Positions 5,962 to 40,900 of a stretch of DNA of 64,000 bases are shown in pieces (the first letter of the stretch is position 1; each line of letters opens with the position of its first letter). A program made the translations under genes and the position numbers. The stretch spans positions 1,004,501-1,068,500 of the forward strand of contig OZ024848.1 of the NCBI GenBank assembly GCA_964017145.1, given 5' to 3'. Below the pieces are notes generated by a model that was not told the origin of the DNA, ran no database searches, and saw nothing but the letters and a program-made list of their open reading frames with translations. The DNA comes from Agrocybe praecox (taxonomy: Eukaryota; Basidiomycota; Agaricomycetes; Agaricales; Agrocybaceae).

Positions 5962-8436
5962 ATGACATCCACTACTAGCCGACAGACGCTTGTTGATGTA
6001 TGCCGACAAAGAGTCGCGGAACCCAAAGGATACGACGACTATTTACCGGACAAGGCAACCGCTAAGACGACCCAGCATGAGATACCACTTCCTTCACATC
6101 GACACGCGACTCCTTCTGCCCCATGGCCTTGGATAGACATAGGAGATGGTACGACCATATCCACCCCACACTTCCTTCTATATTTCTTACAAACTGACGC
6201 TCAGAGGTCGATAAAGTTCAACTGGAAAAGGACGAAGACCCTGTTCCCGAAGAGTGTCTATATGGCCCGCAGAATTTATGGAAAGGGTATCCTCAGTCAC
6301 TTTACCCGAACTGGACCGCGAAGCAGGTGGAGAAGAGCGGGATCTGTGCAGCTATCAGCAAATATCGAAAATCCGTCATTTATCAAGTCGATGTAGCTGA
6401 CAATGGTCACTTTAAATTGCCGCCGGTCAAAGAGATACGGACGGATTCGAATAACCTGGAGGAGCTCAGGGAGTCTATTTGGAATCTCAATGTGAGTATA
6501 AAGATACAAGAACATTGCTGGCGCGTTAAATAATATTTCCGATATTCTATCTAGATTAACGATACAAATCGAGTCAGGGTTTTATTCATCGAAAACATGT
6601 CCGGCCCAGTCCTGCAAATGTTAGGGACAAGGTTAGATACACATAGTCATGAATCTGACGTCCTGGACTAAACATATCGCGCTGTCTGACATGACTTTAG
6701 GTACAACATCGAACCGTTTTTCTTTTCGTCTTCCTTGAAATGGATTCCTTCGCGATATCAGGAGAGCCTTGAACCCGGTGAAGGGGATCGTAAGCATCAT
6801 CAGATCATGATTGTGTAGCACATTCTGACCTGGCATTACAATCAAAGATATTACTCTTTGTATGACTTTCCTACGGTCGATACCCGAACGCGAGGGAATG
6901 GAGGGAGTTACGTCTCCCCCTCGTTCCACTATCACATCACGTAGTTCGACTCTCTTTTCTGATAAAGTTTCTACCTTGCAAGGTGGTATGTGATTTGGCA
7001 ATGTGGTCAGGCTTATAGGTTAATGAATTTCGTGTTCTTTCTTTCTAGATCGTCCGAACATCGATACTCAAGGGCCTCTTCACCTGCAGTCGAGTGAGTT
7101 CAATTCGTTCTCGGAGAATACCCCTAGCACTAAACCTATCACGTTATGTCGGTCCAGGTGGACGCATATTGGTTCCGGACCTTATGTCCGTTCATCTAAT
7201 TCGTAGGAAGCAGAAGAGTGTTATTATCTCATATCACCCGGATGCAAATGGACGGACGACATGCGCTAAATATTTGCATGAGAGAATACGATTTGCAGGT
7301 GCAGTGTTTGATCTTGTCATTTCTATAAAATGGCTCTAACTACTGTGATAGGACAAAGCGTCTACTGGCAAAATATCTTCCAGAAGTATAAAGACCCCAC
7401 CTTTGTTTTGCTGGCTTTTATTTGGCATACCTTGTATGCTTGGGACGAAGCACTCGAGCACTTATATGCTCACATTTGCAACATTGTACGTGTTTTCGGA
7501 AAATGAGCAGCCATTACTATCTCATAATATACGCAGGAAGGAGAGACGATATCAACCCGAGAATTAGCGCTCACAGAAGAACTTCACAGTATTCGCGCAC
7601 ACCTCTATCACTACTCGTCTCTTCTAAATGACGTCCGCAAATCAATCAATTTTTTGAAAAGCACGAAAACACCTATCAATTACTCTCCGAATGGCAGCAG
7701 TGTTTTGGACCGGGAATGTGACAACTTACTGGCGGAGATTGATCGCCTCGAGACTGGGCGCCAAATGCAAGATCAGAGATTAAAAAACGTCATGAACCTC
7801 GTAAGGAATGAAGCGATGTATAAAAATGAGTACCTCACTCAAACGATTTTTTCTAGGTTTTCAGTAGTGTCAATATCCTAGACAGCAAGGCTATGCACGA
7901 GTTGACGAAGCTTACTGCAAGGGACAGTGCAGGTACGTTCAATCGAATCCTCTAAGTATTTATGAGAATATTCAAAAAGCTCAATTTCTGTAGCTGTGAG
8001 TTTTATTTATTGCTAATAACATAACTATCCTGACGACGGTCCTGACAACTCATCAGATGAAACAAATTGCCTACTTGTCAATGTTCTTCCTTCCGGCGTC
8101 TTTCATCGCGGTAATCATTTTACCCCTTCAATCTGATGGGGCGCTTATTTATAATGTTGAAAGGCTATCTTTGGCATGAACGTCAAAGAAATCACCCCCG
8201 GGACAAACGGGACACTTATCCATTACGTCGGGGCTGCTTTGCCATTTACCCTTGTGACTATATGGATCATCATCGCGTTCCAAAGCAAGTACATTTTCAA
8301 TGACGATTGTTCTATTTGGAAGCGTCTTGGGTGGCCCTATCTCCTTATTGCTCATGCGTATAGAGTGGGGAAGCGAAGGAGACTCTCGAAAGGAGGGAAG
8401 GATAACGAAATGAAAGACGGGTTTGGCATGGTGTAA
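5962..8436 (+). CDS. CorA-like transporter, copy A
   Basis: Thirteen exons: 5962-6148, 6205-6491, 6555-6631, 6701-6789, 6848-6985, 7049-7093, 7158-7298, 7352-7485, 7537-7800, 7857-7932, 7994-7995, 8057-8110, 8164-8436. They sum to 1,767 nt (588 aa) in frame. The C-terminus is a CorA pore: first helix MKQIAYLSMFFLPASFIA at about 481-498, GMN at 502-504, then a second helix PFTLVTIWIIIAFQ. GMN is the Mg2+ selectivity signature of CorA/Mrs2/Alr1, so divalent-cation transport is the expected role; the membrane is unknown. The N-terminal region carries HRHATPSAPWPW, YPQSLYPNW, SGPVLQMLG and YNIEPFF. Unlike its paralogs, A lacks the CxHxxCxxCW cysteine cluster (here EECLYGPQNLWKGYPQ). The exon at 7994-7995 is only two bases (CT) and is needed to enter the pore in frame. 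The start is the first ATG giving this N-terminus. Confidence 0.85.
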
Positions 8437-8810: not shown

Positions 8811-11202
8811 ATGACATCGCGCGATTCGATTGCTCTTCAGGATGCCAAGCGGATTGGCGCTCCTTCTCATCGACATGCTGCTCCGTCGGCGCCGTGGCCG
8901 TGGATAGACACAAATGACCGTTTGTTGCTTTGCTACTGCTAAGAATCAACTACAATCTGACACTCAATGAACAAATAATCTAGGCGTTAACCAGGAACAA
9001 CTATTATCCGAACTCCCTCCAGTTCCTCGACCTTGCAATCACGAGGATTGCGTCGATTGCTGGACCGAGTATCCTCAATCTCTCTATCCCAATTGGACTC
9101 CGGAGCAAGTCAAGAAGAGTAAGATCCGCGAAGCTATCCGAAACCGTTGCCCGTGCCGCATTTACCTACTCGATGTTAACGGGAAGGGATTATTCGAATT
9201 TCATAAGCCTGAGGATAACACTATAGAATCTAACGACAATAACCCTGAAGAAACTTGGAAAGCGCTGCTGGACATGAAGGTTAGTATTTATGGACCGGGC
9301 AATGGTTGCAATTTGACCCTTCGCATCATTCTACACTGTACACGATGCTTATAGCTCGATCAGGTGCCCGATGGCAATCGTTTAAGGGCCTTATTTGTTG
9401 AAAATCTGTCAGGACCCATGTTACAAATGCTAGGTGCCAGGTAAGCTTTAGGGAACGCAACTTTCAATGTGAAATTGAAATGGGTTGACATTTCTAGATA
9501 CAACATCGAACCGTTCTTCTTTTCGTCGTCTTTGAACTGGATTCCTTCACGATACCAAGAAGGGGCCAACCAAAATGGTGATCGTGAGTAATACTTTACT
9601 TTTATGTTGCAAACACTTGAAAACGTTGTAATCGACATTGGACAGACATAACCATATGCTTGCCTTTCTTGCGTTCCGTTCGTACCCACAACGCGGAGGA
9701 ATTACCCGGGAGTTTGACCCCCTCTGACACCAATGGAAATTCATTAATCACTCCATATGCCTTTAAGGACCATACGTCCACTCGCAGTAAGTTGTGTTTC
9801 CTCGTATATTCTGCGATGGTCACTCTTTACCTTGCCCTGTTTCTTTTCAGGTATCAAAATTGATACTCAAGGACCTTTGCAGCTCGGTGAGTCTGGTTAT
9901 TTGCGTATTTCTTTATACGAATTGACAGATTTATAGGGGTCCGGTCTTTAATCCCTGATCTTTTATCCATACATCTCATTCGTCAGACCCACGGCAGCAT
10001 CATCATATCATATCACGCCAATGGGAAAACGACATCAGCCTCGTATTTGCATGAACGGATCGGTTTTGCAGGTACTTATGGGCCAAAATTATGGTGGAGA
10101 ATCACTGATTGTCCTTCAACGAACGAATAGGGAAAAGCGTTTATTGGCAGAATATCTTTCAGAAGTCTGAAGACCCTACTTTTGTTTTGTTAACCTTCAT
10201 TTGGCATACATTGTATGCATGGGATGAGGCGTTTGAACATCTGTATGAACACATGTGCACCCTTGTACGCCTTCGATTCTTCTATAAGAACGAATTTGCT
10301 GACAACGAAGAACAGGAAGAAAAAGCTATAAATACCCAAGAGATGCCGCTGACCCAGGAACTCCACCGCATTCGCGCCCATCTTTATTATTACTCGTCTC
10401 TACTTAGCGATCTTACCAAGTCGATCGAGTTCATACGCAAGGTGAAGAATCCCGCGCTGCCTAGTACTCCAGAGAGCGACTTGATCTTGGAACGAGAATG
10501 TTCGAACCTACTAGCTGAGACTCAGCGTCTCGAGATGGGAAGAAAAATGCAGGATTACAGACTAAAAAATGTAATGAATCTGGTAAGTCCATTACAGTGT
10601 CATATATTCTCTTCAAATAAAAAAAAGATTTAATAATATCTTTCTTTAATTACCAGGTGTTTAGTAGCGTCAATATCAGAGACAGCAGATCAATGCACGA
10701 AATAACTACCTTGGCGGCTCGAGACAGTGCTGGTGTGTTCATTATTCTACCATTAATCCTCTCAAATGTCTAAACATGTCTACTTTAGCTGTATGTCATT
10801 GTAGAACGTTTTAACCCAGATTTGACTTACGAGATTTACGGTGACAGATGAAGCAAATTGCGTATTTGACGATGATATTCCTTCCTGCCTCTTTTATGGC
10901 GGTAAAGAATTATCTCCTCCACTTTATTCCCTAATCTAACGAAGTTATCGATCTAGGCCATCTTCGGAATGAATGTCAAGGAGATTGTACCCGCATCGTA
11001 CGGTACAATTCCTCATTATTTCGCAGTCGCGTTTCCGTTTACTATCCTTACTGTTTGGATCATCATCGCATTCCAAAGCGAATACCTGTTTCCGCACTTG
11101 TCATTCTGGAGACGGCTCGCCTGGCCTTACCTTCTTTTGCCACGACTATTCGAGAAGAGCCGACCTCTTTCTGATGAACAACAACTCCATAGATTGGTTT
11201 AG
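8811..11202 (+). CDS. CorA-like transporter, copy B
   Basis: Thirteen exons: 8811-8919, 8984-9279, 9364-9440, 9498-9583, 9646-9786, 9851-9886, 9937-10071, 10131-10264, 10316-10582, 10657-10732, 10789-10790, 10848-10901, 10957-11202. They sum to 1,659 nt (552 aa) in frame. N-terminal blocks are HRHAAPSAPWPW, a putative metal site CNHEDCVDCW, YPQSLYPNW, and YNIEPFF. A long helical region (WDEAFEHLYEH, then an ERECSNLLAETQRLE heptad-like helix) leads to the pore. The pore consists of MKQIAYLTMIFLPASFMA, GMN at 475-477 and PFTILTVWIIIAFQ. The two-base exon CT is at 10789-10790. The intron 10265-10315 is 51 nt with no in-frame stop, so its retention would insert 17 residues. Exon 7 lacks 9 bp present in D (GKDFPTTS becomes GKTTS). 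The exon 3 acceptor could alternatively lie 9 nt upstream. Near-duplicate of D. Confidence 0.85.
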
Positions 11203-12009: not shown

Positions 12010-12876
12010 GAACGTACAAAGAGTCGCGGAACACAAAGGATACGTCGACTATCTACCGGACAAGGAAACCGCTCAGACGACCCAGCATGAGACACCACTT
12101 CCTTCACATCGACACGCGACTCCTTGTGCCCCATGGCCTTGGATAGACATAGGAGATGGTACGATTATATCCACCCCACACTTCCTTCTTTATTTCTTAC
12201 GAGCTAACGCTTAGACGTCGATAAAGTTCAACTGGAAAAGGACGAAGACCCTGATCGATCCCGAAGAGTGTATATATCGCCCGCAGGATTTATGGAAAGG
12301 GTATCCTAAGTCACTTTACCCAAACTGGACCTCGAAGCAGGTGGAAAAGAGCGGAAAGGGACAGTGCAGGCACGTTCATTGGAGTCCTCTAAGTATTTTT
12401 TTGGAAATATTCAAAATACTCAATTTCTGTAGCTGTGAGTTCTATTTAAGTATTGCTAACACAACTATCCTGACGATGGTCCTGACAACTCATCAGATGA
12501 AACAAATTGCTTACTTGTCAATGTTCTTCCTTCCGGCGTCTTTCATCGCGGTAATCATTTTACCCCTTCAATCCAATAAAGCGCTTATTTATAACGTTAA
12601 AAGGCTATCTTTGGCACGAACGTCAAAGAAATCAACCCCGGGACAAATGGGACACTTATCCATTACGTCGGGGCTGCTTTGCCATTTACCCTTGTGACTA
12701 TATGGATCATCATCGCGTTCCAAAGCAAGTATATTTTCAATGACTATTGCTCTATTTGGAAGCGTCTGGGGTGGCCCTATCTCCTTATTGCTCATGCGTA
12801 TAGAGTGGGGAAGCGAAGGAGACTCTTGAAAGCAGGGAAGGATAACGAAATGAAAGACGGGTTTGGCATGGTGTGA
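12010..12876 (+). pseudogene. CorA-like pseudogene, copy C
   Basis: Closely similar to copy A but broken in at least three ways. First, about 100 bp that in A contain the start codon and first codons are missing (CGAAC joins directly to GTACAAAGAGTCGCGG near 12010). Second, after GAAGCAGGTGGAAAAGAGCGG (about 12350) the sequence jumps to AAAGGGACAGTGCAGG. This deletes everything equivalent to about 6345-7917 of A, that is most of the N-terminal region and helices. Third, the pore signature GGCATGAAC of A reads GGCACGAAC at about 12613, changing GMN to GTN. The remaining exons keep A-like splice sites, including the two-base CT exon at 12433-12434. The 3' end, with helix PFTLVTIWIIIAFQ, is intact to 12876. 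Not expected to make a transporter. Confidence 0.9.
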
Positions 12877-13314
12877 ATCATCGTGGTGGGGTTATGTAAA
12901 TTCTATAGTATTATGTACATTAGTCGTTCGACCTATCCAAATTTTGTGCGCCCTTTATCAAAGTTCAGCGCTGTATTCCGTTGGCGCCAAGTTGGCGCCC
13001 ACCCGCTGGTTTCTGTTAGGGGAAAGTATTCGGGGTTGCCAAGCGGTTGGTATATTTAGAAGCTCGGAAATACGTTGGCTTACGTTTGTGTGACATGATA
13101 TGGGAGAAAACGTGGACACCGTGTCACAAGGAACTCTTAATGAGGGACCCAGTTCTTCAATCCTTTCTAATATCATGTCATTCTTCCGGGAGTTCAACAC
13201 CTCCGTGTGTATCCATCCGACCAATATATGTCAATTTCCACTTTATCCAGCTTATCTATCTTCCTCATCATTCTGATTCCTGAACGGTTGAAATACTGAT
13301 GGCATTTCATTTCC

Positions 13315-13383: not shown

Positions 13384-15776
13384 ATGACATCGCACAATTC
13401 GATTGCTCTTCGGCTTCAGGATTCCAAGCGGATTGGCGCTCCTTCTCATCGACATGCTGCTCCATCGGCGCCTTGGCCCTGGATAGACACGGATGACCGT
13501 TTGTTGCTTTACTGCTGTTAAGAATCAAGTATAATTTGATATTCAATCTAGACGTTAATCAAGAACAACTATTATCCGATCTCCCTCCAGTTCCTCGACC
13601 TTGCAATCACAAGCCTTGCGACAATTGCTGGTCCAATTATCCCCAATCTCTCTATCCCAATTGGACTCCGGAGCAAGTCGTGAAAAGTAAGATCGACGAA
13701 GCTATCCGAAACAACTGCTCGTGCCGCATTTACTTGCTCGATGTCGACGGGAATGGATTATTCAAAGCTCAAAAGGAAAGCACTATAGAATCTAACAACA
13801 AGAACCTCGGAGAAACTTGGAAAGCGCTGCTGGACATGGAAGTTAGTATCTATGGACCGGGCAATGGTTGCAATTTGACCCGTCGCATCATTCTACGTTG
13901 TACACGATGCTTATAGCTCGATCAGGTGCCCGATGGCAATCGTTTAAGGGCCTTATTTGTTGAAAACATGTCAGGACCGATGTTACAGATGCTAGGTGCA
14001 AGGTGAGCTTCAGGGAACGCGACTTTCAATCTGAAATTGAAATGGGTTAACATTTCTAGATACAACATCGAACCGTTCTTCTTTTCGTCGTCTCTGAACT
14101 GGATTCCTTCACGATACCAAGAAGGGGCCAACCAAAATGGTGATCGTGAGTAATACTTTACTTTTATGTTGCAAACACTTGAAAACGTTGTAATCGACAT
14201 TGGACAGACATAACCATATGCTTGCCTTTCTTGCGTTCCGTTCTTACACCCAACGCGGAGGAATTACCCGGGAGTTTAACCCCGTCTGACATCAATGGAA
14301 AGTCATCATTCACTCAATATGGCGCTAAGCGCCCTACGTCCACTCGCAGTAAGTCTGTTTCCTCGCATTTCCTCCGATGATCGCTCTTTACCTTGCCCTG
14401 TTTCTCTTCAGGTATGAAAATTCATACCCAAGGACCTTTGGAGCTCAGTGAGTTTGGTTATTTGCGTGTCTTATTATACAAATTGATAGGTTCATAGGGG
14501 GCCGATCTTTAATTCCTGATCTTATATCCCTACATCTCATCCGCCAGACCCATGGCAGCATCATCATATCGTACCACGCCAATGGCAAAGACTTTCCAAC
14601 GACATCAGCCTCGTATTTGCATGAACGGATCCGCTTTGCAGGTACTTATTGGCCAAAATTTATGGCGGAGAATCACTGATTGTCCTTCTACGAACGATTA
14701 GGGAAAAGCGTTTATTGGCAGAATATCTTTCAGAAGTCTGAAGACCCTACTTTTGTTTTGTTAACCTTCATTTGGCATACATTGTATGCATGGGATGAGG
14801 CGTTGGAACATCTGTATGAACACATATGCACCCTTGTATGCATTCAAATTTCCTATGAGCACAGATTTACTGACAACGAAGAACAGGAAGAAACAGCTAT
14901 TATTACCCAAGAAATGTCGCTGACTCAAGAACTCCACCGCATTCGCGCCCATCTTTATTATTACTCGTCTCTACTTAGTGATCTTACCAAGTCGATCGAG
15001 TTCATACGCAGGGTGAAGAATCCTGCTCTGCCTAATATTCCAGAGAGCGACGAGATCTTGGAACGAGAATGTTCGAACCTACTAGCTGAGACCCAGCGTC
15101 TTGAGATGGGAAGGAAAATGCAGGATTACAGACTAAAAAATGTAATGAATCTGGTAAGTCTATTATAGTTTCATCTATTCTCGTGAAATAAAAAAAAATT
15201 ATAACATCATTTTATAATTACTAGGTGTTTAGTAGCGTCAATATTAAAGACAGCAGATCAATGCGCGAAATAACTACCTTGACGGCTCGAGACAGTGCTG
15301 GTTTGTTCATTTTACCTTCAATTTCGTAAAATGTCTAAATGGGTCCACTCTAGCTGTATGTCATTATAGAACGTCTCGACCTAAATCTGACTTACGAGAC
15401 GTACGATAACAGATGAAGCAAATTGCGTATTTGACAATGATATTTCTTCCTGCCTCTTTTATGGCGGTAAAGAATTATCTCATCTACTTTATTCCCTAAT
15501 CTAACGAGGTTATCGATCTAGGCCATCTTTGGAATGAATGTCAAAGAGATTGCACCCAGCTCGCACGGTACAATTCCTCATTATTTCGCAGCCGCATTTC
15601 CGTTCACTATCCTTACTGTTTGGATCATCATCGCATTCCAAAGCGAATACCTGTTTCCGCACTTGTCGTTCTGGAGACGGCTTGCCTGGCCTTACCTTCT
15701 TTTGCCACGACTATTTGGGAAGGGCCAACCTTTCGTACGTCCTTCGGATGAACAACTCCCTCATGGATTGGTTTAG
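13384..15776 (+). CDS. CorA-like transporter, copy D
   Basis: Thirteen exons: 13384-13498, 13552-13841, 13926-14002, 14060-14145, 14208-14348, 14412-14447, 14498-14641, 14702-14835, 14887-15153, 15225-15300, 15354-15355, 15413-15466, 15522-15776. They sum to 1,677 nt (558 aa) in frame. It has HRHAAPSAPWPW, the cysteine cluster CNHKPCDNCW, YPQSLYPNW, SGPMLQMLG, YNIEPFF and WDEALEHLYEH. The pore is MKQIAYLTMIFLPASFMA with GMN at 478-480. It is the tandem duplicate of B, with the same exon phases, the two-base exon CT at 15354-15355, and the same 51-nt frame-neutral intron (14836-14886). A start at 13324 would add 20 residues in frame but is disfavoured by the TATA position. Expected to transport Mg2+ or another divalent cation by family; specificity unknown. 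Confidence 0.85.
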
Positions 15777-17215: not shown

Positions 17216-17655
17216 ATCGCTTGTATCTATTGCAGCATGCTGTTCTTTCTTATTCTGAGCAACTTTCTCTGAAAGAAACGGTGTCAACTGTTGTTTCATG
17301 GATAATAGCGGTATTACAACATGCACATTTGACGCTACTCTACAGAGTGCACATTATAGTCGTTGAATAGTCACAGTTTGTGCCCATCTCGTTTCCGGCT
17401 TCTTTTCTTTCTCCTTTTCTTACCTTTCTTGGTCTTGTGCTTGAACTTATCGGTACTAGTCCTGAAGCACCACGAACCCTCCCAGCAAAGTTAAAAGTTT
17501 ACATACTCTTGTTTGAACGGTTTGAAAAATTTCAATTAAATAAGACACTTGTCACTTCGGATAAACACGACATATTTTCGTTCGCAACAAAACAAAGGAA
17601 AGGTGTTAATTGGTGGTGTATTTATATTTCTTTGATCCTGAAATAGAAAAAGTAA

Positions 17656-17752
17656 TGCCTCGTACCCGGATTGAACGAGTGACCTTCTCATGTCGGAATC
17701 TGCCGTTGGGCGAACCTACAAGTGAGACGCGCTACGACTACGCCAACGAGGC
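17656..17752 (-). tRNA. tRNA-Thr (anticodon TGT) with intron
   Basis: Read on the minus strand, the acceptor stem GCCTCGT pairs perfectly with ACGAGGC and is followed by discriminator A. The T arm is ACTCG-TTCAATC-CGGGT. The anticodon stem TCTCA pairs with TGAGA, and the loop begins CTTGTA, placing TGT at 34-36. A 25-nt intron (from GGTTCGCC to TTCCGAC) sits at the standard place one base after the anticodon. The spliced tRNA is 72 nt. The D loop reads AGTCGTA, one G short of the usual GG pair (G18G19), which could mean a divergent or weakened gene. The isotype call depends on the intron position; with the canonical 37/38 position it is Thr. Confidence 0.8.
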
Positions 17753-18020
17753 TTGTACGTCAAGGGCAGAGGTTATCTCACGGTGTCGTGAATGAGTTTG
17801 ATTTTGCCCTGGGCTCTATTCGAAGAGGCGCCAATGTGTTTAAACCTGAAATGTAACTTGGTCTCCCATGAATTTTTGAGAAGAATAATGGGATAAGTGT
17901 GACTGTAATTGAATAGCAAAAAACAAACGAGTTACACCTTTATCCAATTGTCCGTGTTTTGAATGGGCGCTTCTCTATGCTCAGGCATTCTAAGACTCTT
18001 GGGTAGTCAAATATTAGTCT

Positions 18021-18124
18021 CCACCCTGCCGAGTTGATGTTTTTCGGTCACCTGAAAACCCCGTATAAAACTTGATTACCATTCAGTTTTCAGGTGACCG
18101 AAAAACATCAACTCGCCGGGGTGG
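18021..18124. repeat. 39-bp inverted repeat (long hairpin)
   Basis: Arms at 18021-18059 and 18086-18124 are reverse complements with about two mismatches (core GAGTTGATGTTTTTCGGTCA, then CCTGAAAAC), separated by 26 bases. A related, degraded version (TTTCAGGTCGCCTGAAAACC) occurs at about 36253-36275 after copy H. A small MITE-like element is the simplest reading. Confidence 0.75.
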
Positions 18125-21564: not shown

Positions 21565-24560
21565 ATATATTCGTAGAAAGTGATATAGGGCGTAAGTATG
21601 TATTACTAAGGGATAACAGATAGAAAGGGTAGACATTAAAATGAAAATGTAAGTAGGTGAACTATGTGTTTGAAAATTCAACCTGAACTACAAGTATAGT
21701 ACTACTGTACAAAAATCTTAAAGAAAGAATAAAAAATATAGGAGCAAGTCAAAGCAAGGATGAAACCCAGAGCTAGAGCCCGGCATACTTGTACAATCGC
21801 CACCAGCGCGGCCAACAACGACGAGGACGAGCTTGGTGAAGGCGATCACCGCTTCTCATTATACCAAGTCGTTCCCTTCCATCCATACGCGCTCCTTCCG
21901 CACCCGAATCATCCTCATGATGAAGTACACTGGCCAGCTCAGTCGCTGGATGAACGTCGTATTGTTGTTCCCGAATATGTCTTTGGGCTGGATTGCAATT
22001 ATAATCCACGTCGTTACCAGGGTGAGGGAGAGTGCTATCCCGATGTATTGTGGAAGGGTCCCGTTAGACCCGGGATTGATTTCAAAGATGTTCATTCCGA
22101 ATACACCCTGGTTGATGATTTAGTTAGAAAAAGCAGGTAAAAAAATGGAGGAGAAAATTCAGACTAACAGCGACGAACGATGCAGGGAGGAAAACCATAG
22201 TCAGATAGGCTACTTGCCTCGTCTATGATATCAGAGGAAAGGACATCAGGGTCTTTTCGATATTAATGATAATAATAGCGAATAAACTCACAGTACCACT
22301 GGTCACCTCCCACATGTCTCTGTTATACTTATTATCGATAATATCGATAATACTAGACACCAGGTCGCTAACATTCTGTAGCCGCCTCTCCTGCATACAC
22401 AGCTCAGTGCCGAGCCTCTTGATCTCCGTAGACAAATTGGCCACCTCCCGCTCCATGATCCGCTTGCTGAAGTCGCGATCTTCCTGGGGCAGATTGTCCA
22501 AGGCGGGGTTGGGTGTATTTTTGATGAATTCGATGTGCTTGGTGTAGTCGTCCAGGAGAGACGAGTAGTGCAGGTGGTGGGCACGGATGAGATGAAGTTC
22601 TTGGGTAAGGTGCATATCGTTTGTTGAGATTATGCGGGATTCCTGCGATTATGTATCCAGTTTTGTCAAGCCAGCCACTCTCTGATGATTGATGGATTGA
22701 TGATACACACCAAAGAGCAGATATGGTCATATAAATTTTCAAGTGCTTCGTCCCAGGCGCACAAAGCATGCCACATAAATACTAGAAGCAGGAACGTAGG
22801 ATCTGGAGATCTTTGGAATATGCTTTGCCAGTATACACTCTGGCCTAGTCGGCACGAAGTTGATTATAGCGTCAAATTGAGCCTTCAGCTATGAAAAAGG
22901 GAACGTACCTGCAAATCGAATTCGCTCTTGCAAAAATGCCGCAGTGGTAGTGGGAAAATTGAGAGTTGGATGAAATGAAATGATCGTGCTCCCATTCACG
23001 TTCCTAATGAGATGAACAGCAAGGAGGTCAAGGACCAGCAATCTGTCATCTTCGCGCATTAAGTATGTTGGTGATACTTGAAACAAGAACAAATGTACAC
23101 ATACTTGAACGAAACACTAAAGGCGAATGTGGGTCGATTTGCTGGCTACCCACCATTATGCTTGGCGGCTCCTCTTCAAACCTACCACCTCTACCTTTCA
23201 TAGGCAGCGATTTCGGCATTGAACGAGGGAAGGTAAGGGTAATTGTGATGTCTAAAAATATTTTTGTGAGAAATGTTTGTTTTCGAACGATGAGGAAGAG
23301 GAAAGCAGGACTCACGATCTCCAATTCCTGATTTCACTTCTTCTTGAAAACAGGATGGGATCCAGTTAAGGGAGGAGGACCAGAAGAAGGGTTCGATGTT
23401 GTACCTAGGGTGGTACATTGTAAAGACATTGTAGAGTACAGGAAGGACCATGCTGGACTCACTTCGCCCCTAACATTTGTAGTACAGGACCTGAGATGTT
23501 CTCGAGAAAGAGTGCCCGAACACGTAGTCCTTCTGGTCTCTATAAGTTTAACAAATTGTCAAAAATATAATCTAAAATGTAAACGCAAGGAAGCAGACTT
23601 ACCTTATCCTCGACCAAGATCCTCCAAATCTCAGCTTCCTTATCCGGCCCATGTCCAGCTGGAATCTTGCCTGGGTTCAGAAATAGTCCGTTTGAATCAA
23701 CGTCTACCCTGTGCAGCACACAATCATTCTCTTTATTATAGTCCCGTACGGCATTCCAGATCTTGCTCTTGACCACCTGCCGGCGAGTCCAGTTAGGGAA
23801 GCGCGATTGTGGGTATCCTTTCCAGCAGTTGTTGCATTCCGACGGCCGGTGGGAGCACAAAGGAGGAATAGGTGGGAGACCGCTTTCGAGTTGTTTGGGA
23901 TCGACCTCTGAGTGTGTGCATGTCCGTGAATCAGTGTTATCATTGACAGGGAAAGAGAGACTGACCATCTCCCACATCAACCCACGGCCACGGCATGCTC
24001 GGGTTTGCATGCCGATGTGACGGATGAGGGTTCCTTGTATCGTCTGTGAGGTACTTGCTCATCGAACGTATCGTTCGCTCACTTCTTACGCTACTACGTG
24101 CGCTGTGTATCGACATCGCATCTGATCCGTCCATCCCATAACGCGAGGAATTGATACTGGGGGCCATGAGACTATTACGGTTCGAGTTGCTTTGGGTTTG
24201 GTGTTGGAGTTGGGCATTAGTGGTGGTACTGGGACAGGAGGCATTGCTTTGGCTGGTGTTTTGAGGGTTGTGGGTATTCTTGTTATTGAGGTTCAAATTT
24301 TGGGTACTCCTTGCGTGAGCGCTAGGCACGGTCCCGCTGAGGTTTCGCTGTGAGGATATCATGATGTAAACCGGTCGTTAACTCGTAAGCAAAGAAAAGT
24401 CGTGCGTGTGAGTCGTCGAAGAGCAAGAAAGGAGCAAGTTTGTTCGAAACTCCACGCAAAGAAGAGAATATGCCGTGTGCCCATCATGGAGCAGATGTTG
24501 AAAAGATATGAATGGAAGCAGGGATCCCTGTATCTCCCCGAGGGATACCCAAAAGGATGA
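21565..24560 (-). repeat. Inverted duplication, left arm (copy F)
   Basis: This arm is similar over its length, in reverse complement, to 37930-41491. It includes the 5' flank (CAGGGATCCCTGCTTCC ... CATGATGGGC), the coding region of copies F and I, and about 270 bases of 3' flank ending at CTTTCTACGAATATA. The right arm carries an extra segment of about 345 bp (about 37998-38335) in the 5' flank. Confidence 0.85.
21859..24362 (-). pseudogene. CorA-like copy F, frameshifted
   Basis: Inferred exons follow copy I: 24362-23966, 23907-23603, 23539-23463, 23404-23316, 23251-23105, 23049-22909, 22844-22711, 22643-22292, 22222-22169, 22107-21859. Their sum is not a multiple of three (1,945). In the eighth exon ACAAAACGAT stands where I has ACAAGCAAC, adding one base. 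The frame then reads to a stop about 91 codons later (ending GDQEARH), before the pore. Further losses are visible. The exon before the pore lacks the MTEAAVRDSAA part, the MK of MKQVAYL has become TR (ATGAAG to ACGAGG), and the C-terminus is shortened to 21859. The N-terminal blocks remain (CSHRPSECNNCW, YPQSRFPNW), and GMN is still present in its own frame. It could still produce a truncated soluble protein. Confidence 0.75.
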
Positions 24561-25960: not shown

Positions 25961-28465
25961 CTATAATAAATGTCCCATCTCTTCGTCCTTTTTGCTAGGC
26001 CCTCGCCGCTTTCTTGATATCCACTTTCTAATGTAGTTAATACAGTCGATAGCTAGATACATAGGCCAAGCTATCCTCTTCGTGAATGGCGTAGTAACAT
26101 TTTGAAAGATGTAGTTTGACTGAAATGCGATAATAATCCATGTGAGCAGCACCGCAGTCACAAAGAACTGCCAAAGATTGCCAAAGCTCCCTGGATTGAT
26201 CTCAGAAACATTCATTCCGAATATGCTCTATAGCACAAGCGAGAGTTAGATGGCACAGCTAGGGGAGGAATTCTGGCATCTTACCGCGATAAACGAAGCA
26301 GGCAGAAAGAAGATGGTGAGATATGCGATCCGTTTCATCTAGGTAAAAACACTGTTAGATTTTTTATCCGGATTAGTGGGTCCCTATAAACATACAGCTA
26401 AATGTACATGAGTCGTTAGTACTAGTAGGGTTCAGGATACGTCGTTCAAAAAACATACCTTCACTGTCCCGAAGAGTAGCCTCAGTCATCGTTCGTACGA
26501 AGCGACTCTCAGTCAGCTCCTTGAGATTCCTCAGCCTCTCGTCCTGTCTTTTTAGTTCGGCCCCAAGTTTTTCTATATGTGTTAACAAGTGCCCTGCTTC
26601 CTTTCGCATGATCTCCCTGTTCAATATGCGATCGGCGGGGGGAAGATCGTCTAGGGCAGGGTTGAGAGTGTCACGGATAAATATGACGTGAAGAGAAAGG
26701 TCCTCCAGGAGAGATGCGTAGCGTACGTTGTTGGCACGGACGAGATGCAATTCCTGTGTCAAGTATATATGTTCTGTCTCGAGTACACGGGTTTCCTTAA
26801 TAATAGTTTAGTCTTTGTTTCATAGAATGAGGGAGGCAAATTACCAAAGAACCAAGGTGATCATGTAAACACTCTAGTGCCTCATCCCAAGAAACGACGG
26901 CGTGCCATATAAATGACAAAAGTAAGAGGGTGGGGTCAGCAGATTGTTGAAGTATTTTTTGCCAGTAAGTACTTTGACCTGATTGGGAGCATGCATCAAC
27001 TCGTGTACTTTCAGTGGTAACAAAGAATAATGGGCATGCATACCAACAAGCTGTAAACGCCCGTGCAAGAAAACTGCGGTCGTAGCGAATAGGTTGAACG
27101 TCGGATGGAACGAGATGATCGTGCTGCCGTTTACGTTCCGGATAAGATGTACAGCGAGAAGGTCAGAAACAAGTACTTTGTTGCCTTGATGGACAAACAT
27201 GTCAGCGACTTGAATAAAGTAGAATAGAAAGAAATGTATACTTACTTGAATTTAATAACAAAGTACCTTGTGGGTCAATCGTTTGCATACCCATCTTCGA
27301 AATACTGCCGCGGCCTGTGTTTATAGAACGGGTGGATCTGGAAGTGACGGTATTCGTCATTGAACGAACGAAGGTGAGGGTGATCGTAATGTCTAAAGAA
27401 ATCTGAATGTTTGATAAAAATACAACGGCAAGGAGAACAAGCTCACGATCTCCGATACCAGGTTGAACTTCATGTTGGAGACGAGATGGAATCCAGTTAA
27501 GGGCAGAGGACCAGAAGAGGGGTTCGATGTTGTACCTAGCATGATGTAATGGATAAATCATAGTGTACACGGTATAGCAAAAATTCAAAGCACACCTTGT
27601 ACCTAGCATTTGTAGCACAGGACCCGAGAGATTTTCCAGGAAGAAGGCCCGTACGCGTAGTCCGCTTGGCCTCTGCAAATTGGTCAAATTCCGAATACAT
27701 TAATAGGGAAAATCGAGAGAAATGAACCTAGTTGCAACCCACTTCATCTTCGACCAATGCCTTCCAAACTTCCACTTCGTGGAATCCGCCGTGTCCCACA
27801 AACATGTTCCCCGAAGTCAAGAACATTCCATTTGAGTCAACATCCAAAAGGTGCAAAACACATTCGTTTTCCCTGTTATAATTCACGATAGCGTTTTTTA
27901 TCTTGCTCTTGACCAACTTCTGATCAGTCCAACTAGGGAAGCGCGACTGGGGGTACTCTCTCCAGCATTCGTTACATTCAAGCGGGCTGTGTGAGCATAT
28001 AGGAGGTACTGGTAGCAGTGCGGTTCCCTGCTGATTCGAAGGGTCCACATCTGTATGAATGTGCATGGTCAGCTCCATGTTCGATGAAGAGTATGAAAGG
28101 ACATATTAACCATCTCTGAGATCAATCCAAGACCAGGGCATGCTCGGAATTGCATGTCGGTGCAACGGATAAGGTGCCCTGGTGGAATCTGCCTTTGGGT
28201 GCTTGATTATGGAGGGTATCGTCCAGCCGCTTCTGCTACTGGGCACACTCCTTATCGATATTGCTGCATCATTTGGGGGACCAGTGACCCTCTCGTTGGC
28301 ACCAATCCCGGCGCCAATGTGGCCGTTGCCATTAGATTGATTTTGGGAAGTGTTGGGGTCACCATTTTGGATGGAAACCTTTTCCTTGACGTTATTCGAA
28401 TTTTGGTCGATATTGCTAGTGCTAGCGTGTGTGGGAGGCTGCAGGGTTGGGCGTGACGAGATCAT
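25961..28465 (-). CDS. CorA-like transporter, copy G
   Basis: Eleven exons: 28465-28111, 28050-27743, 27672-27596, 27535-27447, 27392-27246, 27184-27044, 26978-26845, 26795-26459, 26397-26396, 26338-26285, 26227-25961. They sum to 1,911 nt (636 aa) in frame. The N-terminus is a long low-complexity Asn/Ser-rich tail, then HRHAIPSMPWSW, the cysteine cluster CSHSPLECNECW, and YPQSRFPSW. The pore helix is MKRIAYLTIFFLPASFIA, with GMN at 552-554. Odd points: the VFSSVNIxDS stretch of paralogs is missing, RIRFA is replaced by RLQLV, and the second helix is shortened (VTAVLLTWIIIAFQ). The gene is the most divergent intact member and might be altered in function. The two-base CT exon at 26397-26396 is present. 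An upstream in-frame ATG at 28486 is possible. A TATATAAC lies at about 28530-28523. Confidence 0.8.
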
Positions 28466-33161: not shown

Positions 33162-36028
33162 ATGACAAACGACCGCACCAATCCTATACACAAGAAAGCC
33201 CTTCTAGACGATAACAAAAGAGTTGCCCCCCCCTCTCATCGACATGCTGCGCCCTCTGCTCCATGGCCTTGGATAGATATCACAGATAGTTAGTCCATTT
33301 CATCACTGTTTACTGCGAATCCCAGTAGTGGGTTATTTTTAGCACTCTGACTAACCAGCTCACCCATTATACTCTCCCCTAACATTTCTCCACTGCCCAT
33401 ATTTTTCTGCGAAATACAATCTCCTGGTAAACAAAAACTATTTGCACCCATAGACGTCGACCGCACGCAACTCGAGACAGATTTACCCCCCGTTCCTGAG
33501 CCCTGTACCCACCACATACACACATGCGACAACTGCTGGACAGGATACCCACAATCACTCTACCCAAATTGGACTCCAGAACAAGTCGGAAAAAGCAAGA
33601 TAAGGAAAGCTGTCAAAGACTATCGGAGGGATGTCAAATGTGTCTTGTACCAGGTCGACGTAGATGGGGACGGACTATTCAAGGTTCCTGAGGAGGGAAA
33701 GATTGAGAGTGATGATTCAAAGTTGGAGAATACCTGGCATAGGATTGTAAACTCCAAGGTGTGTATGTTTGAATTTCCGTATCGTTCCATGTGTTGACTC
33801 TATGATCTCCGTCAGATACCTCACGACAACCGAGTCCGAGCTATATTCGTCGAAAACATGTCAGGACCCGTGCTGCAGATGCTAGGTGCAAAGTGAGCGT
33901 TTACATCAGCCCATTTCATCTCAATCTCATTTCTGTCAACGACCACAACAGATACAACATCGAACCTTTCTTTTTCTCCTCGTCTCTAAATTGGATTCCG
34001 TCACGATATCAAGAACAAATCAAACCCGGGGAAGGTGATCGTAAGTACACATATACTGTCAAACCGACCTCCCTCCATCACGATCCCTGTCTCCCACTAA
34101 TCCAATCAATCGTCTAACGTGTATTCTATTTCAGATATAACTATATGCCTCACCTTTCTCCGTTCTGTGCCTGATGGAGGAGCGACGAGCATGAGTGCCG
34201 CGTCTCCGTATGCCAATGACGACGGTGGCGCCAGCGTAAATAGCAGTGGCAACATTAGAATGAACATTCGAAGGAAAAAGTCCAATCTAAACGCAAACAC
34301 GTCTTCCACGACTACTTTGCGGGGAGATCCTCGCTCATCACTGAGTAAGCCGACACTTCATGTTTCCCTTCACGATCACAATCACAAAAGATAATTAACT
34401 CATCACCCAAGCCGACCAAATGATTGACACCCAGGCTCCTCTTGTTTTAAAATCGAGTACGTGTCCCTGCCCATAAACTCATGCCCATAATCTAAATTCG
34501 GAACCAGACGGACGCCTGTTAGTTCTCGACCTCCTCAGCGTACACCTCATCCGTCGTGCCCAAGGGAGCGTCATCATCTCCTACCATGCCGATAAAGATT
34601 TGCCAACCACCACGGCTCCCTACTTGCACACAAGGATTCGGTTTGCAGGCAAGTGCACTTTGAGTCTTCACCCGGCTGTTATGAATTTTAACGTGATCCG
34701 TAAAAACAGGACAGAGTGTATACTGGCAGAGCATATTCCAATTATACAATGACCCTACATTCGTCTTGCTCACTTTCATCTGGCACGCTCTGTATGCGTG
34801 GGACGAAGCGCTGGAGAATCTATATTCTCACATCTGTTCTCTGGTAAGAACACACAATTAATATCGGATCTCCGAACATGAACTAACCAGCGGGCCCCAC
34901 AGGAATCTCGTGTAATGAACACCTCCGATATGGAATTAACCCGAGAACTTCACGTTATCCGCGCGCATCATATGCACTACTCGTCGTTACTCGATGATTT
35001 CACGAAAACCGTCGAATTCGTGCGGGACACGAGCAACCCTGCGCTGGAGGTTCTTTCGGAGGCCAAGAGGGAAGCAAATGCCGCTTTGCTGAATAGGGAA
35101 TGCGACAACCTGTTGACGGAGATCGCGAGGCTAGAGGCCGAAAGGAGGATGCAGGACAGAAGGCTGAAGAATGTCATGAATTTGGTATGTGTTCAAGGTT
35201 ATTCTTGTTTTTTTTTTGTGTGTCGTTCTTCTCTTTGGGTTTTCCGCGGAATCTGGCACCCGAATACGTTGACTAAATGATTTTTTATTAGGTCTTCAGC
35301 AGCGTGAACATTATTGATAGTCGAAGAATGCAGAAGATGACAGAAGCTGCCTCCAAAGATAGTGCTGGTACGTGTCTTATCCTATTCCATCGTCGCCTAA
35401 AACCCACTAAAATGACTTCTACAGCTGTACGTTCAATTTCGGCCCAGTAGAAGTTAGAGCTAATTCATTATCGTACAGATGAAGCAAATCGCTTATTTGA
35501 CGATGGTGTTCCTCCCAGCTTCCTTCGTAGCCGTAAGTCTCCGCCTTCTTTCCAACGCCCGCGATTTATGACCCCTCTGACATCATCTCTCACCATCTCA
35601 CCATTTGCTCACTTCTACTCTCCTCTACGCCGCACACCCACACGATAAAACAACAAAAACACATCTTCTAGGCCGTCTTTGGAATGAACGTCGAAGAAAT
35701 CGTGCCCCATACGCACGGCACGCTCTCACACTACGTGTCGACAGCCATCCCATTCACACTCGTCACGATATGGATCATTATCGCGTTCCAGAGCAAGTAC
35801 GTTTTTGAGAACGGTGTGTCGATTTGGACAAGACTTGCCTGGCCGGTCATGTTGCCTGCGCAGATGATCAGTACTAGACTCGGACTGAGGGGTGCGAAAA
35901 AGACAGATGGGAATAATCTTGACGTGAGGGAAGAAAAGGTCTATGGAGCTGGGAATCCGGGAAGAGGACGTACACCGACAACTGCGATGACTATTGCAGA
36001 AGCAATGGAGTCGGTACAACGGTTATAG
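33162..36028 (+). CDS. CorA-like transporter, copy H
   Basis: Thirteen exons: 33162-33288, 33454-33758, 33816-33892, 33952-34040, 34135-34344, 34412-34456, 34508-34648, 34710-34843, 34903-35184, 35292-35367, 35425-35426, 35479-35532, 35672-36028. They sum to 1,899 nt (632 aa) in frame. It has HRHAAPSAPWPW, a cysteine cluster at residues 60-71 (CTHHIHTCDNCW), YPQSLYPNW, SGPVLQMLG, YNIEPFF, WDEALENLYSH and a coiled-coil-like ECDNLLTEIARLEAERRM. The pore is MKQIAYLTMVFLPASFVA, GMN at 518-520, PFTLVTIWIIIAFQ. The C-terminal tail is longer than in A-D. The intron after 34648 starts GCAAGT, a GC-AG intron where the paralogs have GT. The two-base CT exon is at 35425-35426. Intron 1 is unusually long (165 nt). 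Codon use is more C-ending than in A-D. Confidence 0.87.
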
Positions 36029-37929: not shown

Positions 37930-40900
37930 TACAGGGATCCCTGCTTCCATTCATATCTTTTCAACATTTGCCTCATGCATCATGATGGGCCCACGGCACA
38001 ATCACACCCCAAGGGCCAATCAATGGCGTAAGTATAGAGCCTGACCAATGAGGACCGGCTTTGGTGCAGGGCCAGGAGGAAGACACCCACGGGCTTACGG
38101 GACACGTTTTCTCAAGATATATTCCCGGGGCAGACAGGACGGCGCTTACATTATTGACGCTGTCAATGGGCCTTTTATAAAAACAAGGCACCTTCTCTTT
38201 CCTTCTCTTCCGCCCTGCGCAACGTGGACAGCTGAATAGTGTTGACCAGCACTGTTGACGCCCATTATCGCGTAGGCTGTGATATTCCCATTAATCCACC
38301 GACTACTCCGGGTTGTCGAACTAGCTTGGTTCTATTCTCTTCTTTGCCTCGAGTTTCGAACAAACTTCTTTTCCTTTTTCCTTGCTCTTCGACGACTTCA
38401 CATTCACGACTTTTCTTTGCTCACGAATTAACGACTACTTTACATCATGATATCCTCACAGCGAAACCTCAGCGGGAGCCTGCAACCTAGCGCTCACGCA
38501 AGTAATACCAATACCAACCAAAATTCGAACATCAATAACAAGAATACCCACAACCCTCAAAACGCCAGCCAAAGCAATACCTCCCATCCCAATATCAGCA
38601 CTAATGCCCAACTCCAGCTCCAAACCCAAACCAACTCGAACCGCAATAGTCTCATGGTCCCCAGTATCGATGCCAGCGGGATGCTCGCTGCTCCTTCACG
38701 TTATGGGGTGGACGGATCAGATGCGATGTCGATACACAGCGCACGTGGTAGCGTAAGAAGTGCGCGAACGATACGTTCGATGAGCAAGTACCCCAAGGAC
38801 GATCGGACAAGGGTCCCTCATCCGTCACATCGGCATGCAAGCCCGAGCGCACCGTGGCCGTGGGTTGATTTGGGAGATGGTCAGTCTCTCTTTCCCTCTC
38901 GATGATAACACTGATTCACGGACATGCACATACTCAGAGGTCGACCCCCTGCAACTCGAAAGCGGTCTCCCACCTATTCCTCCTTTGTGCTCCCACCGCC
39001 TGTTGGAATGCAACAACTGCTGGAAAGGATACCCACAATCGCGCTTCCCTAACTGGACTCGTCGGCAGGTGATCAAGAGCAAGATCTGGAATGCTGTACG
39101 GGACTATAATAAAGAGAAGGATTGTGTGCTGCACAGAGTAGACGTCGATTCAGACGGACTATTTCTGAACCCAGGCAAGATTACAGCTGGACATGGGCCG
39201 GATAAGGAAGCTGAGATTTGGAAGACCTTGGTCGAGGATAAGGTAGGTCTTCTTCCTTTTGTTACATTCCAGATTATATTTTTGACAATTTTTTAAACTC
39301 ATAGAGACCAGAAGGACTACGTGTTCGGGCACTCTTCCTCGAGAACATCTCAGGACCTGTACTGCAAATGTTAGGGGCAAAGTGAGTCCAGCATGGTTCT
39401 TCCTGTACTCTACATTGGCTTTACAATGTACCAACCCAGGTACAACATCGAACCCTTTTTCTGGTCGTCCTCCCTTAACTGGATCCCATCCCGTTTTCAG
39501 GAGGAAGTCAAACCAGGCATTGGAGATCGTGAGTCCTGCTTTTCTCTTTCTCATCGTTTGAGAAGAAACATTTCTCACAATATTATTTTTAGACATAACA
39601 ATTACCCTTACTTTCCTTCGTTCAATGTCGAACCACCAAGCTATTCAAATGAGCGCTGCTCTCGCTACTACATCCACCGACTCGCTGCCTATGAAAGGTG
39701 GAGGTGGTGGGACTGGAGGGAAGCCAAGCACAATGTTGGGTAGCCAAAAAATCGACCCACATTCACCTTTAGTGTTACATTCGAGTATGTGTACATTTGT
39801 TCTTGTTTCGGGTATAAAGCTCGCTAACATATTTAATCCGCGAAGATGACAGATTGCTGGTCCTTGACCTCCTTGCTGTTCATCTCATTAGGAATGTGAA
39901 TGGGAGCACGATCATTTCGTTTCATCCAACTCTCAATTTGCCCACTACCACCGCGGCATTTTTGCAAGAGCGAATTCGATTTGCAGGTACGTTGCCTTTT
40001 TCATCGCTGAAAGCTCAAGCTGACGCTATAACTAACTTCGTGCTGACTAGGCCAGAGTGTATATTGGCAAAGCATATTCCAAAAATCTGCAGATCCTACG
40101 TTCCTGCTTCTGGCATTTATGTGGCATGCTTTGTACGCCTGGGACGAGGCACTGGAGAATTTATATGACCATATCTGTTCTTTGGTGTGTATCATCAATC
40201 CATGAAACATTAGAGAGAGGCTGGCTTGACAAAACTGAATGCATAATCACAGGAAACCCGCGTAATCGAAACAAGCAACATGCGTCTTACTCAAGAACTT
40301 CATCTTATCCGTGCGCACCACCTGCACTACTCGTCTCTCCTGGACGACTACACCAAGCACATCGAATTCATCAAAAATACACCCAACCCCGCCTTGGACA
40401 ATCTACCCCAGAAGGATCGCGACTTCAGCAAGCGGATCATGGAGCGCGAGGCGGCCAATTTGTCTACGGAGATCAAGAGGCTCGGCACTGAGCTGTATAT
40501 GCAGGAGAGGCGGCTGAAGAATGTTATAGGCCTGGTCTTTAGTAGTGTCAATATTACGGATAGCAAGTATATGAGGGAGATGACGGAGGCGGCTGTTAGG
40601 GATAGTGCTGCTGTGAGTTTATTCGCTATTATTAATATTAATATTGAAAAGACACTAATGTCCTTTCCTTTGATATAGATGAAGCAAGTAGCCTATCTGA
40701 CCATGGTTTTCCTCCCTGCATCGTTCGTCGCTGTTAGTCTGAATTTCTCCTTTTTTGCCCGCCTTCTCCAACTAAATCATCCTCTTCTAATCAGGGTGTA
40801 TTCGGAATGAACGTCTCTGAAATCAATCCTGGGTCTAACGGCACCCTTCCGCGATACGTCGAGATAGCACTCCCGCTCACACTGGTAACAGCGTGGATCA

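Follow-up and report, generated by a model that had tools for sequence, protein, structure and literature searches.

A very probable two-nucleotide coding exon in CorA-like transporter genes of Agrocybe praecox and its single-intron paralogs

A 64,000-nucleotide stretch of the Agrocybe praecox genome (contig OZ024848.1, positions 1,004,501 to 1,068,500; the window, within which positions are given below) carries several copies of a CorA-like transporter gene. In copies A, B, D, G and H the coding sequence just ahead of the first pore helix is interrupted by two introns that leave only the dinucleotide CT between them. The question is whether so short a segment is an exon at all and, if so, how two introns came to lie 2 nt apart. 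The evidence presented here indicates that CT is very probably a constitutive two-nucleotide coding exon between two independent U2-type introns, with a remnant in pseudogene C; that A. praecox actually splices these genes in this way is what we infer from the genomic sequence.

The CT site, its reading frame and its paralogs

Reading the sequence at each of the six sites bears out the CT coordinates given in a preliminary description of this DNA. On the forward strand, copy A has the upstream intron 1 at 7933..7993 (61 nt, GTACGT..TGTAG, phase 1), CT at 7994..7995 and the downstream intron 2 at 7996..8056 (61 nt, GTGAGT..ATCAG, phase 0). The same order is seen on that strand in copy B (intron 1 at 10733..10788, 56 nt, GTGTGT..TTTAG; CT at 10789..10790; intron 2 at 10791..10847, 57 nt, GTATGT..GACAG), copy D (intron 1 at 15301..15353, 53 nt, GTTTGT..TCTAG; CT at 15354..15355; intron 2 at 15356..15412, 57 nt, GTATGT..AACAG) and copy H (intron 1 at 35368..35424, 57 nt, GTACGT..TACAG; CT at 35425..35426; intron 2 at 35427..35478, 52 nt, GTACGT..GTACAG). 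Copy G lies on the minus strand, with intron 1 at 26398..26458 (61 nt, GTATGT..TTTAG), CT at 26396..26397 and intron 2 at 26339..26395 (57 nt, GTATGT..CCTAG). Pseudogene C retains CT at 12433..12434 on the forward strand, has GC at the intron-1 donor (12370-12371) and reads FGTN, not FGMN. The upstream exon ends in GTGCAG in A and C, GTGCTG in B, D and H, and GTGAAG in G, as had been described. The sequence AG/CT/GT follows between the two introns at all six sites, and the downstream intron ends in AG directly before ATGAAR at each of them. The flanking introns of the five non-pseudogene copies measure 52-61 nt, each with GT..AG borders.

The motif is far more frequent than composition predicts. 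AGCTGTRNGT occurs seven times in the window against 0.81 expected, a number reached in none of 100 shuffles, and six of the seven occurrences are the CT sites of copies A, B, C, D, G and H. Within the combined introns, AGCTGT with at least 45 nt on either side appears in 0.08-0.62% of 5000 dinucleotide shuffles per combined intron. For any AGNNGT with the same spacing the figure is 5-10%, and an isolated AG-NN-GT would therefore be unremarkable. Alignment of the intron interiors gave z below 3 (2.8 at most, for intron 1 of B and H) except in the near pairs B/D and I/F; thus CT and its splice sites persist although the introns around them have diverged. A search for the two-intron junction pattern at the DNA level returned no stretches in viral contigs and six in prokaryote genome contigs, all with bacterial titles, which were taken as chance.

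Splice paths were enumerated from the Asp-Ser codons to the ATG with introns of at least 40 nt, allowing one GT-AG or GC-AG intron or two GT-AG introns. Paths that include the CT exon are the only in-frame GT-AG paths common to A, B, D, G and H, in agreement with the earlier statement that inclusion of CT keeps the frame. Joined to the better upstream donor, the CT exon gives Ala-Ala before Met-Lys in A, B, D and H, and Glu-Ala in G. Copy D offers no GT-AG alternative to the CT-exon paths, and copy G no rival single-intron path in frame. Longer in-frame exons between the two introns were also considered; they exist in A, B and G, but none is common to all copies.

Paralogs outside the window were located by a protein search of the same genome (59.17 Mb), and their DNA was then fetched. 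Two further relatives with the pore helix were found, L033 on C8 (minus strand) and L032 on C7, and each has intron 1 only. The C8 paralog reads ..AGTGCTG/GTAGGT..TTTAG/CTATGAAACAAATAGC, with CT fused to ATG AAA, and the C7 paralog reads GAGCTG/GTCAGT..CCAG/TG ATG AAG, with TG in place of CT. Copies I and F show the reciprocal arrangement, with intron 2 only and CT fused to the preceding codon. Copy I reads GCTGCT/GTGAGT, its two GCT codons being contiguous at 40607..40612 on the forward strand with CT joined to the upstream exon, and intron 2 occupies 40613..40678 (66 nt, GTGAGT..TATAG); the absence of a first intron here had been noted in the preliminary description. In copy F, on the minus strand, intron 2 lies at 22223..22291 (69 nt) and CT falls within the ACT of a GGT ACT that is contiguous upstream. 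Since intron 1 is absent in I and F, intron 2 is absent in C8 and CT is still coding, CT is coding sequence on either side, as the claim of a coding exon demands. These reciprocal single-intron paralogs are regarded as the strongest evidence, short of RNA, that CT is exonic. The introns of the C8 paralog and of copy I are offset by 2 nt and leave the same Ala-Ala-Met-Lys product. Two other loci, L034 (C8:2359000-2364000) and L035 (C6:520500-526000), match the N-terminal part of the transporter only, and pattern searches of their fetched DNA found no pore helix or GMN.

Proteins from other organisms point the same way. The homolog set comprised the best 120 of 445 and the best 120 of 134 proteins, 228 of them distinct, and was sorted by hand on source into 132 NCBI and 96 other rows. 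Among the 96, 65 are continuous open reading frames (ORFs) that span the junction into GMN. Most of these lie on contigs of ~1-4 kb, and they are probably transcripts. In all 65, Met-Lys is immediately preceded by Ala (54 DSAA, 4 DSSA, 3 DSKA, 2 DSTA, 1 DSNA and 1 DNSA). The other 31 rows fail the spanning test; for example, they end before GMN, are without the helix or read through introns. Neither Asp-Ser-Met-Lys nor Asp-Thr-Met-Lys occurs in any of the 228 strings, 179 of which span the junction.

With CT included as exon 11 of 13, copy H encodes a continuous protein of 632 residues that contains KDSAAMKQIAYLTMVFLPASFVAAVFGMN and matches the Pfam CorA family (PF01544) with 40.1 bits against a cut-off of 27; H was the one copy scanned. 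GMN follows the first transmembrane helix (TM1) in A, B, D, G, H, I and F. By domain and motif the genes would belong to the CorA-type divalent metal transporters, and transport of Mg2+ or a related metal is predicted from the family. A complete gene model was also obtained for copy I, without intron 1. The models of A, B, D, G and F and of the C7 and C8 paralogs cover the C-terminal half only, which in each is open through GMN to the stop codon. Copy F is visibly decayed, with ACG for ATG and an altered stalk. In pseudogene C (12241-12900) the N-terminal coding sequence runs straight into the junction region, the central exons being missing. Among the matches listed, the closest named homologs are from Agaricales, and Agrocybe pediades proteins are the nearest (77% to copy A, 86% to copy I).

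Splicing order and intron history

Intron 1, in phase 1, would split an Ala codon as G/CT, and intron 2, in phase 0, would lie just before the ATG AAR that begins the CorA TM1/GMN helix. Intron definition probably excises the two introns in succession. The nucleotide directly ahead of CT would be G both in the pre-mRNA, where it is supplied by the AG of intron 1, and after removal of intron 1, where it is supplied by the G of the upstream exon, so that the donor of intron 2 would read GCT/GT either way. With this context unchanged, the two-nucleotide exon would not have to be bound at both ends simultaneously. Removal of intron 1 first would generate the layout of genes I and F, and removal of intron 2 first that of the C8 paralog; that either order yields a layout existing as a gene favours sequential intron definition. 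The preliminary description had called exons this short difficult for the spliceosome, which is probably overstated for an arrangement in which neither intron shares its donor or acceptor with the other and the two one-step intermediates are represented among the paralog structures. Several introns show a clear strict branch-point match close to the acceptor.

The occurrence of all three layouts in the family of one genome suggests that an intron has moved by 2 nt through gain of a second intron and loss of the first. An economical history would begin with intron 1 alone, the state of C7 and C8. A second intron would then have been gained 2 nt downstream, giving the state of A, B, D, G and H, and intron 1 would subsequently have been lost, giving the state of I and F; the net result would be a 2-nt shift by way of a two-nucleotide-exon intermediate. 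In a tree of 62 rows, for which the root was chosen on P0001, C7 and C8 are placed in an outer group (99/73), whereas G, F and I form one clade (100/97) that is joined (97/87) to the clade containing A, B, D and H. In a 33-row tree, one change per intron suffices for the nine own genes. Forcing the two-intron genes into a clade without I and F in that tree was rejected (approximately unbiased (AU) test, p=0.024; log-likelihood 21.1 worse), and it is on this rejection that the move by gain and loss rests. The simplest reading is that the two-intron state is older than I and F and that these two lost intron 1. The intron sequences are too diverged to align for tracing one and the same intron, and the two-intron paralogs point to gain plus loss. 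On balance we lean towards the view that intron sliding has here been caught in the act, with upstream-only, both and downstream-only states in the family of a single genome and with introns 2 nt apart having coexisted for a long time.

Non-NCBI homolog ORFs that read on into introns extend the range of states, as judged from their protein strings. P0195 reads through intron 1 straight into the helix and would have the upstream intron only. P0218 reads through intron 2 alone and would have the downstream intron only; a 54-row tree groups it with H (96/88), in which case intron 1 would have been lost a second time. P0182, P0196, P0213, P0215 and P0178 read straight through the junction into the next intron and would have neither.

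Several features of the trees tell against this order of events. The A/B/D/H clade is the weaker one in the 62-row tree (89/92), these copies are not resolved as one clade in the 33-row tree, and the group submitted to the AU test was named only after the tree had been seen. In the 54-row tree, which has 127 columns and includes the read-through ORFs, the deep branches are weak and A, B and D are not joined with H. Copy G is a long branch. The direction of change, gain of intron 2 as against its loss in C7 and C8, is tentative.

The same exon could have had the opposite history, in which both introns are ancestral, C7 and C8 lost intron 2, I and F lost intron 1, and nothing was gained. This account likewise needs one change per intron on the tree, and introns are generally considered to be lost more often than gained. 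Against it stand the five homologs that appear without both introns and P0195 with intron 1 only; apart from P0215, which is not in the 54-row tree, these fall there outside the I-type and H-type groups, with weak support. Ancestry of both introns is accordingly regarded as quite possible but somewhat improbable.

Two observations concern introns nearby. In P0220, P0222, P0224 and P0225-P0227, which belong to another lineage, the protein strings place an intron site 9 nt further downstream, after Met-Lys-Gln; introns have therefore occupied three closely spaced positions within this run of codons. The intron one exon upstream is present in A, B, D, H and the C7 and C8 paralogs and absent in I, F and G (regions compared: 40500-40570 for I and, on the minus strand, 26560-26480 for G).

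Database gene models and alternative splice paths

Among the NCBI rows 114 of 132 span the junction, 82 in canonical form and 32 in aberrant form: 12 with insertions, 10 with Asp-Ser-Ala-Gly or a close variant, 7 without VRDSAA, 2 with DSAE and 1 other. The aberrant fraction (32/114) contrasts with 3/65 in the non-NCBI rows (Fisher p 6.7e-5), and those three represent one lineage whose shorter junction still ends in Ala. Some of the aberrant NCBI rows, above all those with DSAE, may be genuine variants, and P0191, counted among the insertions, represents a divergent lineage carrying DSAS. The control was the spacing at the neighbouring intron junctions, which was standard in 109 of 115 NCBI rows at the upstream junction and in 113 of 115 at the downstream junction. 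A cruder regular-expression control at the upstream junction (108/114 NCBI, 55/65 non-NCBI) was set aside in its favour, since plain substitutions also fail it. The earlier expectation that databases hold wrong models of this family is confirmed by 32 irregular models of 114 at this junction versus 6/115 and 2/115 at its neighbours. The canonical NCBI rows are uninformative as to the presence of the two-nucleotide exon in their genes.

Beside these models must be set the points that count against CT as a constitutive exon. Joined to a poorer upstream donor, the CT exon is also in frame and gives Asp-Thr. A single GC-AG intron keeps the frame in A, B, D and H, although not in G, and copy B has an in-frame GT-AG single-intron path from a donor at +2. 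Copy A has two poor in-frame single-intron paths that carry long insertions, and copy H stays in frame if intron 1 is retained. In intron 1, strict branch-point matches lie only at a distance in A, B and D, and H has none.

The best surviving of the alternative paths is that CT is skipped at least some of the time, which would shift the frame, remove the pore and lead in some copies to a poreless protein or to nonsense-mediated decay. Skipping is possible at all five two-intron copies and in each of them shifts the frame with loss of GMN. In copy A the sequence then reads ..YLWHERQ.. in the place of GMN and meets a stop 64 codons past the junction, and not a TGA exactly at GMN as had been reported. 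The product of skipping is in fact seen in one gene model, P0120 (NCBI, Tephrocybe rancida), which is missing the helix and hence lies outside the 114: it reads DSADEANC and then directly AVFGMN, and DSADEANC is what results from joining the intron-1 donor to the intron-2 acceptor in copies B and D. The skip frame occurs in this model alone among the 228 homolog strings, however, and the downstream frame and GMN are kept in A, B, D, G and H; even occasional skipping is judged unlikely.

Alternatively, a single GC-AG intron of ~115-128 nt might run from GCAGGT or GCTGGT after Asp-Ser to just before the ATG, yielding Asp-Ser-Met-Lys and making AG/CT/GT incidental. Copy H does use a GC donor elsewhere, in a GC-AG intron at 34649-34709 (GCAAGT donor). 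Copy G, however, reads GAAGGT at the place in question, its GTGAAG ending in a Glu codon, so that no GC donor exists there. The predicted Asp-Ser-Met-Lys is the string found in none of the 228 homologs, the single-intron paralogs match the GT donor or the CT acceptor, and AG/CT/GT has been kept though the introns diverged. A GC-AG intron is consequently very improbable. Equally improbable is one longer intron with a shifted donor (exon end GGT/GTGTTC in copy B, giving Asp-Ser-Ala-Gly-Met-Lys): it is in frame in B and gives the reading, or a close variant of it, of the 10 of 114 spanning NCBI models noted above, but no such path exists in A, D, G or H, Gly is found there in 0/65 continuous non-NCBI ORFs, and NCBI irregularities are far fewer at both neighbouring junctions.

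One further homolog touches on splicing at this site. P0189 (372 aa, 1212-nt contig) has a continuous ORF and then reads DSAA/VCFFF.., possibly a transcript with intron 2 retained.

Known ultra-short exons and neighbouring features

Exons of comparable size have been described. The single-nucleotide exon of APC11 in Arabidopsis is reported as constitutive, with sequential intron-definition or recursive splicing proposed (PMC4674806), and 1-nt exons of APC11 and VPS55 are described in land plants (PMC8831610). As presented in the relevant passages of these papers, they resemble the CT exon in being ultra-short, constitutive, codon-completing and missed by annotation, and in having some intronless relatives. 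They differ in being 1 nt long and from plants; those passages describe intronless relatives and alternative isoforms, and reciprocal single-intron paralogs are not among them. A 1-nt exon of the CYP621A P450 gene in Fusarium was inferred from similar evidence, namely phase incompatibility, an intronless relative and conserved splice sites, and was confirmed by SRA reads (PMC12940212). Its origin is proposed, in the part of the paper concerned with it, to be the rescue of a lost base; at the CT site, in contrast, the coding sequence shows no change, and the first intron has a second one next to it. According to the same source, exons of 2-5 bp had earlier been described in Arabidopsis, Drosophila and humans; two-nucleotide exons as such are therefore not claimed as new. 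Literature searches on intron sliding, microexons and smallest exons yielded no recognised report of a two-nucleotide exon in a mushroom gene or in this transporter family.

Spliceosomal twin introns (stwintrons), as characterized in sections of PMC5639578, also require two splicing reactions in succession at a single site of a fungal gene. The CT site differs from that description in that both introns have a complete donor and acceptor and 2 nt are kept as coding sequence; with 2 nt left between the introns and no splice signal interrupted, a stwintron was ruled out. Intron sliding is called still debatable in a passage of PMC7730772, which cites a stwintron route for 1-nt shifts (Fekete et al. 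2017). Such a shift is likewise a short apparent slide through a complex-intron intermediate, but in the CT family the distance would be 2 nt instead of 1 nt, the intermediate would be a two-nucleotide exon, and all three stages are found in one genome. Near intron pairs, defined in the portion of PMC2891723 that bears on them by intron positions <32 nt apart in related genes, are comparable in distance, although in the CT family the introns coexist 2 nt apart. Such coexistence contradicts the assumption, which that portion places behind near-intron-pair studies, that introns a few bases apart cannot coexist.

The short exon itself is therefore of a known kind, and what is taken to be new is that one genome contains two-intron paralogs together with reciprocal single-intron ones. 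The family adds a two-nucleotide coding exon from a mushroom to the short list of ultra-short exons, and offers annotators a precise fix for a transporter family that is widespread and in which many gene models are wrong. The reciprocal paralogs also make the debated intron shifts of a few bases testable by RNA and by mapping of introns across Agaricales.

Elsewhere in the window, a tRNA was looked for at 17500-17900 and none was found. An inverted repeat lies at 18030-18120, where GAGTTGATGTTTTTCGGTCACCTGAAAA recurs as its reverse complement ~30 bases further on; it is perhaps a small mobile element.
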